A DNA stretch of 45,415 nucleotides. Source: a virus. A model generated the notes under the pieces. It saw only the letters and a list, made by a program, of their open reading frames with translations. It ran no database searches and was not told where the DNA came from. Position 1 is the first letter of the stretch, and every line of letters starts with the position of its first letter. The position numbers and the translations under genes were made by a program. This document shows positions 9,353 to 38,574 of this stretch, piece by piece. The DNA lies in IMG/VR virus record IMGVR_UViG_3300048588_000447, positions 1-45,415 of that record; one strand, given 5' to 3'.

Positions 9353-11378
9353 TCTGGCGTTTTCGGACGCGCAAAGATGGGTTCTGAGCTGCCTTGCTGC
9401 GGCGGTGCGGCCGAAGAAGCGGCTGCCGATCGCACAATGGGCTGAAGCGAACATCGTTTTAAGCGCGGACACGAACTCGCCGCGCATCGGCCCGCTTGAT
9501 TTAAGCGACGTCGCCTTCGTGAAGCCGATCCTGGCGCGGCTTGACCCCGCCGATCCATGTCGCGGCGTCAATGTTTTGGCCGCGGCGCAGTCGGCGAAGT
9601 CGCTGATCGGCCAAATCTGGTCGATGTACTCGATCGCGGAGAACCCTGGACCGCTTGGGGTCTATCTCCCCTCGATCGATGACGCGCGAAAGTACGCCGA
9701 AGAGAAAATCCAGGCGGTCATCGACGGATCGCCGACGCTGAAGCATCGCGTCAGGGCAGTGTCATCACGATCTGGCGCCGGCTCATCGACGCTGCGCAAG
9801 CGTTTTGTCGGCGGCTCCATGCGGATCGCCACAGCATCGAGCCCGAATGCGCTGCAGATGGTCAGCTTCCGCGATCTCATCCTCGAGGAAGTCGCCGGTT
9901 ACGACGCCGATGTCGGCGGCCGCGGCTCACCGATCGATCAAGCGAAGAAACGCCAGCGCGCCTGGCTGAAGCGCGGCGCCAAATGGTTGCAGCTCAGCGC
10001 CGGCGGCGTCGCTGGGAAGTGTCCATCGAGCGACGCGCACGAAAAGGGCGCCGCGTACGAACTTTATCTGCCCTGCCCGCATTGCTCTGGGTTTGGCCGG
10101 TACGAAATCGAGGATATGCGCGGGCCATCGGAGACGACCGGACCGCACTTCGCTTGCCGTCTCTGCGGCGGCATCGTCGAAGACCATCACAAGGGCCCGA
10201 TGGTCGCGGCGTCGGTTTACATCGCGACGTACGAAGACGGCGACGACGCGAACCCGGCGCCGCCGGCCGCGTTCGAAGCTGGTGAGCTGGAGCGCTGGCA
10301 ATCGCGGCCGGAACTTGGCCGCGCGCCGTCATATCGCTGGTGGGTGTACGTTTCGCCCTTCGTCGGCTGGGATGACGTCTGGACGGAATGGATCGAAGCG
10401 AAGGCTGGTGGCCTCGCTCAAGAGAAAACGTTCTGCCAGCAGACGTTGGCGCGCAAGTGGGACGAAGGCCGCGACGCGCCGGATCACGTGAAGCTGTTCG
10501 AGCTGCGCGAAGACTACGACGAGGGCGTCGTCCCTGCCGGCGCTTACGTGCTGACCGGCATGGCAGACGTTCAAAACGATCACTTGACCTGGAGCGTCAT
10601 CGGCTGGGGCCCTGGCGCCGAGTGGTGGCTGATCGATCGCGACAAGATCCTGGGCGATCCCGCGGGCTCGAAGGTCTGGGATGATCTGGCCGAAGTGCTG
10701 AAGCGGCGTTACCCGCACGCTGAGGGCGGCGAAGTTGGCATCGAGCTGTTCGGCGTCGATACCGGCTACAAGTCACACAACGTCTATTTGTTCTGCGGCA
10801 ATCACCCGACGGCGCGCGCGCTCGACGGTTTGCCCGGCTGGAATCGGCCCTACATCGGCAAGCCGAAGCGCGTCAAAGCACGGCTCGACGGCAAGATTGT
10901 TGGATCAACGCTGCTCTATCCGACGGGCACCTGGTCGCTGAAGTCGGAGCTGGCGTATTCGCTGCGCCTGGCGATCGACAAAGGCGTCGACATGCCGGCG
11001 CCGGGTCGTGCGCACTTCCCGCGTTGGGTAACGCAAGACTTCGTTCGCGAGCTCGTCGCCGAACACGTCGTTGAGGAATCATCGCGCGGCCGCGCACTGA
11101 CGCACGTGTGGAAGCTGCGCAAAGGCTTCCGCAACGAAGCAACTGACGAATGGGTCGGCGCACGTTCATTGGCGTACGGCTTGGGCATCGGCGCTCCGAA
11201 GAGTGAGCGCCAATTCGATTGGGATGCGGCCCGCACGTTGATTTGCGGCGGGCCATTGCCCGCGGCGGCGGCTGAGCGGTCTGCGCCACCACCACCGCCA
11301 GCTCCGCCGCCGGCAGCTGAGCGGCCGAAGGGCGGCACATTGCTGAAACAGAAGCCGAGTGGCGGCGGATTTTTCTGA
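9288..11378 (+). CDS. terL: Terminase large subunit (lambda GpA family)
   Basis: 696 residues, the usual size for GpA-type packaging motors. Visible features: adenine-binding region (PIAQWAEANIVLS), a Walker A-like loop in AAAQSAKSLIGQ, Walker B-like DLILEEVAGYD and the family signature GRGSPIDQAKKRQRAW. A zinc-binding CPHC...CRLC pair lies near residues 265-300. The nuclease domain has TGMADVQND and GVDTGYKSHNVY, where the aspartates would bind metal. It cuts concatemers at cos and drives DNA into the prohead. The proline-rich C-terminus likely contacts the portal. ATG 9288 lies within the small-subunit gene. Confidence 0.95.
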   Translation: MTETPETQPTPAAPPNPKPTTDLAFSDAQRWVLSCLAAAVRPKKRLPIAQWAEANIVLSADTNSPRIGPLDLSDVAFVKPILARLDPADPCRGVNVLAAAQSAKSLIGQIWSMYSIAENPGPLGVYLPSIDDARKYAEEKIQAVIDGSPTLKHRVRAVSSRSGAGSSTLRKRFVGGSMRIATASSPNALQMVSFRDLILEEVAGYDADVGGRGSPIDQAKKRQRAWLKRGAKWLQLSAGGVAGKCPSSDAHEKGAAYELYLPCPHCSGFGRYEIEDMRGPSETTGPHFACRLCGGIVEDHHKGPMVAASVYIATYEDGDDANPAPPAAFEAGELERWQSRPELGRAPSYRWWVYVSPFVGWDDVWTEWIEAKAGGLAQEKTFCQQTLARKWDEGRDAPDHVKLFELREDYDEGVVPAGAYVLTGMADVQNDHLTWSVIGWGPGAEWWLIDRDKILGDPAGSKVWDDLAEVLKRRYPHAEGGEVGIELFGVDTGYKSHNVYLFCGNHPTARALDGLPGWNRPYIGKPKRVKARLDGKIVGSTLLYPTGTWSLKSELAYSLRLAIDKGVDMPAPGRAHFPRWVTQDFVRELVAEHVVEESSRGRALTHVWKLRKGFRNEATDEWVGARSLAYGLGIGAPKSERQFDWDAARTLICGGPLPAAAAERSAPPPPPAPPPAAERPKGGTLLKQKPSGGGFF

Positions 11379-33144: not shown

Positions 33145-33360
33145 TTAGTCCGTCGGCATCACTCGCGCCAACCGCAGCGCGATCTCGCGCATCACGGCGC
33201 GCCGGATAAACTCGCTGCGGCTTTCTCCCGGCCGCAATGCCTGCGCCATCATCGCCATCGAAGCCTTATCCAGTCTGAGCGCGACTGGAGGCCCGCGCTT
33301 GGCGTCGTGACGGCGTGCAGCGGCGATGTAGGCGGGAGATTTCTGCTTTGTGGCTGACAT
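33145..33360 (-). CDS. Ribbon-helix-helix DNA-binding protein
   Basis: 71 residues. The pattern PVALRLDKASMAMMAQALRP, then GESRSEFIRRAVMREIALRL is a CopG/Arc-type ribbon-helix-helix: one basic beta-strand then two helices. Such proteins bind DNA as dimers and often act as phage regulators or excisionase-like factors. No Shine-Dalgarno is visible before ATG 33360; a promoter-like sequence ends only eight bases upstream, so the message may be leaderless. It lies between the late block and the attachment site. Confidence 0.8.
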   Translation of the reverse strand: MSATKQKSPAYIAAARRHDAKRGPPVALRLDKASMAMMAQALRPGESRSEFIRRAVMREIALRLARVMPTD

Positions 33361-33368
33361 CGGTTTAC

Positions 33369-33398
33369 AGATTAGCCGTGGGCAGCGAACGGTGCCAA
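33369..33398 (-). promoter_or_regulatory. Possible promoter for the RHH gene
   Basis: On the minus strand TTGGCA (33398-33393) and TAATCT (33374-33369) are 18 bases apart, a moderate sigma70 match; transcription would start at or next to the ATG. It overlaps the outermost TGTAAACC-type site (33362-33369). Confidence 0.3.
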
Positions 33399-33516
33399 CG
33401 GGAACGCATCGCGCACAAAGATGTAAACTGAGATGGAAACCACGTCTCGGCCCGCCCTTTTCGTTCCGCTAGGGCGTTGCTCTTGCGCGCTGATTTCCTT
33501 AGCAATCTTTCGCGTT

Positions 33517-33555
33517 GGCCCCGTAGCTCAGCTGGATAGAGCAGGTCCGTCCTAA
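33517..33555 (+). pseudogene. 5' half of a tRNA-Arg(CCT) gene (att core)
   Basis: From 33517 the sequence GGCCCCGTAGCTCAGCTGG continues as a normal tRNA: acceptor 5' strand, D-arm GCTC/GAGC, and an anticodon region with T-CCT-AA. Beyond the anticodon the 3' strand of the stem, the T-arm and acceptor 3' strand are absent, so this is a fragment and not a functional tRNA. It most likely marks the crossover segment shared with a host tRNA-Arg gene. Confidence 0.7.
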
Positions 33556-33660
33556 GCAGCCTGCGCACGCACCGTTTCAACGGCTTAGATGCAAACCGGC
33601 GCGAAATCGCACCATTGATGTCGCAGAAGATTTTCGCCGGGATGTAAACCAAAATCGGGC

Positions 33661-34899
33661 TCAGCCCGCCTTCCTCTTCAGCCGCTCCAGCCAAGCCATC
33701 GCGATGCGCTCGGCGTCGGCGTAGCGCTTGGCGACGCGGTCGACATCTTCGGTTGTCCACCCCACCATGTCCGCGACCTCTTCCTTCGAGAAGCCCGCGA
33801 TGCGCATGTGGGTGACGAAGGTGCCGCGCGCATCGTGCAGGGTCTTCGCCACCGGGTCTTCGGTGGGATCGGCCGGAACGTGCATGATGCCCTGCTCGCC
33901 ATTGGCGGCGTCGCGCACTTTGAAGAAGGTCGACGACAGCCCGTCAGGCGTCCACTTCTTGCCGCGCGTGTTCGTGAGCACCCACGGCCGCTCACCGCGC
34001 AGCTCTTCGCCGGGGTCCAGCAGCGTCAGCACCGCGTTGAGTTCCGGCGTACGCGGGATTACGACCGGCGGCGGCGCCTTCTTGCCTGCGGTCTTCGCGC
34101 GGCGCGCCGATTTGCGCGGCCTCACCGTGATTGCGTTGGGCCCGATGTCGCGCCAGGCGAGGTTTACCAGATCATCGCGGCGCAGGCCGGTGTAGCACGC
34201 CAGCAGCAGCGCCAGAACGATCACTGGCGGCGTGTTCGGCTGCGGGGCTCCAGGCTTGCGGCGCTTCGCCCATGCGGCCCTGGCGGCTGCCTCATACGCC
34301 TGGATGTCCTGCGCCAGCCAGATGATGTCGGAGCGGTCGGCGTAAGCGAAGTTCGGAATCCCCTCGGCGGGATTCGCGGCGCAATGGCCTTCGCCGATTC
34401 CCCAGTTCAACGCCTTCGATACGACGTCGCGCCTCTTATCCGCCGCGGCGGGCCCGTTCGTCTCGGCGACCTCTCCCAACCACTTCTTGATTTCGCGGTG
34501 CGCGCCCTTCGCCGTCAGCGCGTTCACGGGCATTTTGCCGACGCGACTGTCGCGGATGTGGTCAGCGATTTTGCGTTCCGATTTCTTCGTGCTTTCGGAG
34601 CGGTTCTTGAACGCATCGCTGGCGGTCCAGACCGCTATGACGCCGCCGACTGTGCGGGTGTCGACATCGGGCTTCATCGCCGCCGCGTAGCCCGCCGCAA
34701 GCGCCTCAGCACCCGCCCTGCTCGTTTCCTGAGCCTCTACGTCGGCGCGGGTGGCGCCTTCGAAGCGGGCGATCTGCGGCGCCCCCCTGCCCCGCCAGGC
34801 GTACCAGAGCCGCGCCGATTGGCCGTCAGCGAGCCGCTTCCAGACCTTATGCGCGCCGGGCAGGCTCATGTTCGGCTTTCCAGGCGGCGAGCGCTTCAT
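33661..34899 (-). CDS. int: Tyrosine-type site-specific integrase
   Basis: 412 residues from ATG 34899, preceded by GGAGGGGG nine bases away; ATG 34869 and an upstream frame to 34953 are less supported. The N-terminal part (about 20-170) is arm-binding and SAM-like core binding (EALAAGYAAAMKPDVDTRTV, STKKSERKIADHIRDSRVGK). The catalytic domain shows Arg in CYTGLRRDDLVNLAW, H355-D-A-R358 in LHDARGTFVTHM, Trp in the usual third His/Trp position (MVGWTTEDV) and nucleophile Y393 in VAKRYADAE. It recombines phage attP with host attB. It is the promoter-distal gene of the minus-strand operon, next to the candidate attP. Confidence 0.93.
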   Translation of the reverse strand: MKRSPPGKPNMSLPGAHKVWKRLADGQSARLWYAWRGRGAPQIARFEGATRADVEAQETSRAGAEALAAGYAAAMKPDVDTRTVGGVIAVWTASDAFKNRSESTKKSERKIADHIRDSRVGKMPVNALTAKGAHREIKKWLGEVAETNGPAAADKRRDVVSKALNWGIGEGHCAANPAEGIPNFAYADRSDIIWLAQDIQAYEAAARAAWAKRRKPGAPQPNTPPVIVLALLLACYTGLRRDDLVNLAWRDIGPNAITVRPRKSARRAKTAGKKAPPPVVIPRTPELNAVLTLLDPGEELRGERPWVLTNTRGKKWTPDGLSSTFFKVRDAANGEQGIMHVPADPTEDPVAKTLHDARGTFVTHMRIAGFSKEEVADMVGWTTEDVDRVAKRYADAERIAMAWLERLKRKAG

Positions 34900-38296: not shown

Positions 38297-38574
38297 GCTC
38301 TCCGCTCCCGGCATTTTTGCTTGTCGATGCAAACCCACGACCAGCCGCAGCCGCCGAGCGTTCCCATCTGCGCGGTGTCACGCGTCAGCGGCGTGCTGCA
38401 GATGCCGCAGCTTTCGATTGACGTTCGGTACGGGCCGCAATACGGGCACGTCGCGCGGGGCTTATGCCCGTGGCGGCATGGCGACTTCACGCGTCTGCGT
38501 GTCGCGATCGCCACGACGACCAGCACTATGAAGTAGGCGGCGATGAAGGCGGCGAAGGCAGCGAGGAAAATCAT
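38293..38574 (-). CDS. Membrane-anchored zinc-ribbon protein (93 aa)
   Basis: One N-terminal membrane helix (FLAAFAAFIAAYFIVLVVVA), a basic turn (TRRRVKSP), then cysteine pairs CPYC, CGIC and further C residues near the end, consistent with one or two zinc ribbons. With the preceding tiny Cys-rich protein it may act together. Inside-facing zinc domain on a membrane anchor is unusual; function unknown. Confidence 0.7.
   Translation of the reverse strand: MIFLAAFAAFIAAYFIVLVVVAIATRRRVKSPCRHGHKPRATCPYCGPYRTSIESCGICSTPLTRDTAQMGTLGGCGWSWVCIDKQKCRERRA

Follow-up and report, generated by a model that had tools for sequence, protein, structure and literature searches.

A temperate tailed phage attachment site at the 5' half of tRNA-Arg(CCT), with a predicted phage-borne tRNA promoter

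The region analyzed here is very probably the attP of a temperate tailed phage that integrates in the anticodon loop of tRNA-Arg(CCT) and brings with it the 5' half of that gene together with a promoter. The region belongs to a viral sequence of 45,415 nucleotides (IMG/VR record IMGVR_UViG_3300048588_000447), the whole of which is called the window below; its features are collected in Table 1. According to the proposed scheme, the host would be a Hyphomonadaceae-type alphaproteobacterium, and the tyrosine integrase would recombine attP with the chromosomal tRNA-Arg(CCT) inside the anticodon loop, at predicted cut positions, with the phage contributing the 5' half of the tRNA and the promoter upstream of it. 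One end of the prophage would then consist of phage promoter, phage 5' half and host 3' half, that is, an intact tRNA gene, and the other end, beside the integrase gene, would retain the original host promoter followed by an orphan 5' half. The phage-borne promoter would be active and would drive the tRNA in lysogens. The scheme is supported by the core identity, by the integrase-side junction of a close relative, and by both ends and the target-site synteny of a distant relative, as well as by a clustered arm motif conserved in the close relative, by the promoter ranks and by a 5'-half copy in a further element. The host-like tRNA promoter on the phage arm is the most interesting part: a phage using the 5' half needs a replacement tRNA promoter in host register, and such a promoter is apparently present.

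Table 1. Features of the predicted attP region and the adjoining integrase gene (window coordinates)
Feature	Position	Strand	Basis or remark
Weak extra arm-site candidate TGTAAAC, inverted	33363..33369	-	short motif
Arm-type site candidate GATGTAAACT (P arm)	33420..33429	+	motif count
Arm-type site candidate GATGGAAACC (P arm)	33432..33441	+	motif count; paired sites in the P arm of G001 too
Predicted phage-borne tRNA promoter	33470..33516	+	promoter model and ungapped alignment
Promoter boxes TTGCTC and TTAGCA, 16 nt apart	33477-33482; 33499-33504	+	same register as host tRNA-Arg promoters
attP core, first 40 nt of host tRNA-Arg(CCT)	33517..33556	+	exact match, host loci with full tRNA
Core content: acceptor 5' strand, D arm, anticodon stem 5' strand and loop	33517..33556	+	
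Predicted 7-bp overlap (strand-exchange) region, anticodon loop GTCCTAA	33549..33555	+	putative cut positions
Anticodon CCT	33551-33553	+	inside the predicted overlap region
Arm-type site candidate GATGCAAACC (P' arm)	33588..33597	+	conserved in G001
Arm-type site candidate GATGTAAACC (P' arm)	33641..33650	+	conserved in G001
Intrinsic-terminator-like hairpin for the integrase gene	33656..33668	-	integrase stop codon TGA in the hairpin loop
Tyrosine integrase, 430 aa	33661..34953	-	PF00589 1.3e-07; phrog_1 integrase 9e-33; 3' end towards attP

The core sequence, GGCCCCGTAGCTCAGCTGGATAGAGCAGGTCCGTCCTAAG at 33517-33556 of the window, is identical with 0 mismatches to bases 1-40 of tRNA-Arg(CCT) of Hyphomonadaceae-type Alphaproteobacteria. 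The identity between phage and host spans 33512-33556 (45 nt) at one locus (L005) and 33514-33556 (43 nt) in several hosts; in most hosts compared it starts at 33512-33517 and stops at 33556, after which the sequences diverge. This stop falls one base past the anticodon loop GTCCTAA, so that the first base of the anticodon stem's 3' strand is still included. The tRNA fragment recognized in the earlier note is thus real and an exact match to the host tRNA-Arg(CCT), but the end given there, 33555, was one base short. When contigs representing one genome per species were scanned with the last 34 bases of the core, 11 loci were recovered, all labeled Hyphomonadaceae or Alphaproteobacteria, and ARAGORN predicted a full tRNA-Arg(CCT) at every one of them (11/11); in the window the same program predicted no intact tRNA. 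The common core of attP and attB carries the anticodon loop at its edge, and we placed the predicted overlap on this loop because the identity stops at 33556 and because the anticodon loop is a known sublocation for crossover (PMC8371274). The right core-type arm of attP, GCAGCC, matches the host GGACAC poorly, and DNA folding gave no unusual hairpin in the core (z -0.62).

The comparison with host loci also demonstrated that the DNA 3' of 33556 is unrelated to the 3' half of the tRNA. This bears on the possibility of a canonical attP at a tRNA 3' half, with the 5' match as a functionless leftover, which would be the common arrangement: the earlier note held that most tRNA-targeting phages carry the 3' half, 3' fragments are found in 3760 of the 3919 islands in Islander, versus 159 with a 5' tDNA fragment (PMC4383910), and most of the related integrases that we found face the 3' end of their tRNA. 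For the present phage we find this reading hardly credible, since no 3' half follows the core, a close relative has its host-phage junction at the 5' half and two related prophages have 5'-half duplications, so that for the relatives it is already refuted.

An attP built on the 5' half of tRNA-Arg(CCT), as the earlier note had proposed, is supported by a relative (IMG/VR 3300048834_000363, hereafter G001) whose integrase is 75% identical to that of the window and one end of which is fused to host DNA exactly at the core. Both ends of the G001 contig carry the core. On the integrase side, the phage arm leads into the core and then into DNA that is 69-82% identical to the region upstream of host tRNA-Arg(CCT); this flank matches a dozen host loci, mostly colinear, and in most of them as one continuous match to the core end. 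Because host DNA from upstream of tRNA-Arg(CCT) continues through the core into the phage arm, this end is, judged by its sequence, a host-phage junction, at which the host promoter and 5' half abut the integrase arm. The other end comprises the distal phage arm with its predicted promoter, the core and the attP-type continuation CCGACAG, and overlaps the first end by 47 bp. With one end a host junction and the other attP-like, the contig seems to join integrated and circular (excised) forms. The earlier note had expected an intact tRNA-Arg(CCT) beside the integrase at one junction; the integrase side keeps an orphan 5' half instead, and the rebuilt tRNA is placed at the far end. Within the tRNA-Arg lineage, the integrase-side junction of G001 was the only junction seen; its counterpart, at which the phage arm would meet the host 3' half in a rebuilt tRNA, was not encountered, nor was an integrated copy of the window phage itself. 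Two core copies in G006 (L007 and L012) were considered as attL and attR and rejected, as they have the appearance of a single full tRNA at which the assembly broke.

Clustered repeats flank the core on both sides and fit arm-type integrase sites, to which the integrase is predicted to bind. GATGNAAACY occurs 6 times in the whole window, against a shuffle mean of 0.41, and 0 of 100 shuffles reached 6; 4 of the 6 copies lie within 33420-33650, so that the whole-genome count suggested in the earlier note does find the repeat clustering at attP. Four of the five repeats named there (33420, 33432, 33588 and 33641) are real, while the inverted copy at 33362 matches the TGTAAAC part only. TGYAAAC alone, with 10 occurrences in the whole window versus 5.84 expected, shows no clear enrichment, and the signal is therefore carried by the longer motif. 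In G001, the GATGCAAACC pair on the integrase side is spaced 52 bp (53 bp for the window pair), and a second pair, of TTGCAAACC copies, occupies the opposite arm at a spacing of 13 bp (12 in the window). Stray copies of GATGNAAACY outside attP were observed at 10214-10223 (- strand) and 38326-38335 (+ strand).

The half tRNA sits exactly between these repeats and beside the integrase gene, a position that would be a matter of chance if it were a phage-encoded RNA, either a decoy in the form of a tRNA half or what is left of a phage tRNA gene. Such an RNA would suit the promoter-like sequence that is present, and transcription in the free phage is possible; yet the junction of G001 and the element ends of G003 and G700 described below fall at the same place of the tRNA, and with the G001 junction at the core an RNA is unnecessary as the main role. 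We consider this explanation very improbable, and the half tRNA may have a second role as an RNA besides being the attP core.

The phage-borne promoter was absent from the earlier note. In an ungapped alignment of the DNA upstream of host tRNA-Arg(CCT) with the phage arms, TTGC and (C/T)TAGC boxes are co-positioned in many of the sequences. A position weight matrix built from 18 host tRNA-Arg promoters placed the window site first among 90,738 positions; in G001, the distal arm came fourth among 102,666. In the leave-one-out analysis a few hosts scored low, with boxes shifted by one base, which indicates that the promoter model is strict rather than lax. Integration at the 5' half separates the rebuilt gene from the host promoter, and a replacement promoter is therefore required; the match to host promoters suggests that the phage probably carries one and that transcription of the host tRNA in a lysogen probably starts from a viral promoter. 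The TTGC/TTAGC block might otherwise be a trace of shared ancestry, or serve the binding of the integrase or of accessory proteins, with no working promoter. This arm should contain accessory sites in any case, the promoter is known from sequence similarity only, and a generic sigma-70 consensus scan calls no promoter in the attP region. We nevertheless judge a block without promoter function unlikely, because the boxes stay at roughly the host spacing in the arms of the window and G001 although these differ at many bases, and because a rebuilt tRNA gene would be silent without a promoter. The boxes found in tRNA-Gly host promoters, TTGCG at -42 and TATCC, are likewise retained on the arm of the related tRNA-Gly phage; this pair alone is weak evidence, with about one chance hit per shuffled strand.

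In two hosts (G010 and G043), tRNA-Arg(CCT) is separated from the conserved upstream block by a protein gene that is GST-like by eye (L011 4260-5219; L045). Their tRNA-Arg(CCT) promoter differs from that of the other hosts, and L011 shares CTACGCAT with the phage arm of G001. The 1-kb extra DNA upstream of these genes was considered as a remnant of integration at the 5' half and rejected, as it holds the protein gene and no 5' fragment.

The core lies outside the integrase gene, between 33360 and 33661, and the integrase gene has its 3' end facing the att site, a lambda-like layout. Beside the attP arm, a small ORF (33145-33360, - strand) looks ribbon-helix-helix-like by eye and is possibly a regulator or excision factor; it had no Pfam or PHROG match and is not apparent at the equivalent place in G001. 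Megablast against GenBank phages gave no match to half the window, Rfam searches of the window and the region gave a chance hit only, and, with the window integrase as query, a class-wide search at E 1e-50 returned nothing.

More distant relatives provided complete prophages. In G003, an integrase 49% identical to that of the window adjoins an intact tRNA-Gly(CCC) at 387506-387580, and an exact 40-nt copy of the 5' half of this tRNA lies at 356945-356984. Upstream, colinearity with the element-less relatives G002 and G006 ends within the tRNA, at base 356987; past the tRNA, the downstream flank is again colinear, here with G002 and G009. From this synteny, which confirms the target site, the element is read as a complete 30.5-kb prophage that supplied the tRNA-Gly 5' half. 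In G700, an integrase 37% identical to the window's lies beside an intact tRNA-Thr(TGT), with an exact 39-nt 5'-half copy 39.8 kb away. Both elements have the layout of a 5'-tDNA-fragment island, namely an intact tRNA with a 5' fragment upstream of it that is oriented the same way. The integrase gene is on the promoter side of the core in G003 and G700 and on the opposite side in the window and G001; the core orientation relative to the integrase gene is thus opposite between the two pairs, and the 5' mode is unchanged. In G002, about 13 kb of extra DNA was observed downstream of tRNA-Gly(CCC) relative to G003 (G002:C59:10844-24068; L089, L090), perhaps another island in 3' mode.

In a tree of 22 integrases, for which the mode of most rows other than the 5' elements was read from tRNA orientation only, the integrases of the window, G001 and the tRNA-Gly element group together (94/89), next to an integrase facing the 3' end of a tRNA-Gly (99/98), and that of the tRNA-Thr element is placed elsewhere, in a clade that includes 3'-facing integrases (100/100). 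Taken at face value, the tree has the 5' mode arising at least two times from the 3' mode, or alternating with it. The clustering of mode labels on the tree was not stronger than in 37-42 of 500 shuffles, and extending the survey to a further set of Alphaproteobacteria brought in four integrases facing the 3' end and none of the 5' mode. Modes could presumably switch with ease by way of the dyad symmetry of the anticodon stem-loop. A broader proposal, which we put forward tentatively and hold to be somewhat doubtful, is that lysogeny hands expression of tRNA-Arg(CCT) to a phage-tuned promoter, that the displaced host promoter makes the orphan 5' half antisense into the integrase gene, and that lineages switch repeatedly between 3' and 5' modes by flipping the symmetric anticodon core with respect to the integrase gene, each time selecting a host-like tRNA promoter. 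Both the interconversion of the modes and the effect of lysogeny on tRNA supply become testable questions.

Two further observations concern tRNA targets. A different tyrosine integrase (343-348 aa) was found on the 3' side of tRNA-Arg(CCT) at L036, L037 and L035 (G006, G003 and IMG/VR 3300014202_000900), so that this tRNA is targeted from both sides. At L033 (G011:C16), two complete tandem tRNA-Trp(CCA) genes have their 5' ends towards a tyrosine integrase, which may be a further unusual integration product.

Integration at the 5' half is already known but rare, and the window phage is an unusually complete case, in that this lineage offers an unintegrated attP and a host junction for comparison with the complete prophages of more distant relatives. 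First, the 5'-fragment islands of Islander share with the window phage the tyrosine integrase, the tRNA target and the carriage of the 5' part of the tRNA gene (PMC4383910); unlike those islands, a single phage lineage here presents the unintegrated attP, the integrase-side junction and a matching promoter predicted on the phage. Second, the att site of archaeal pTN3-like integrases is a tRNA 5' half, and the tRNA is driven by the integrase promoter, an arrangement that is seldom met in bacteria (PMC8371274). Those of Thermococcales (Cossu et al. 2017, via PMC8371274) likewise have a 5'-half att site and a rebuilt gene driven by the element's promoter, and differ in being archaeal, in having the integrase gene split by integration and in that the integrase promoter serves the tRNA (PMC8371274). 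In the window phage, the integrase gene is intact, the core is outside it, and a tRNA-type promoter is predicted on the arm. In bacteria, the rebuilt tRNA gene keeps its original promoter with very few exceptions, according to the same source (PMC8371274, citing Williams 2002). Third, canonical 3'-half phages, such as Boilgate at tRNA-Lys, similarly have a core of 30-45 bp, arm-type sites and a tRNA rebuilt at the junction, but they supply the 3' half, and the host promoter stays (PMC10865867). Finally, the tRNA-dependent lysogeny of Fionnbharth resembles the scheme proposed here in that the phage supplies a promoter-driven tRNA function lost on integration, and differs in that this is a whole tRNA gene located elsewhere and the host gene is not rebuilt (PMC10865867).
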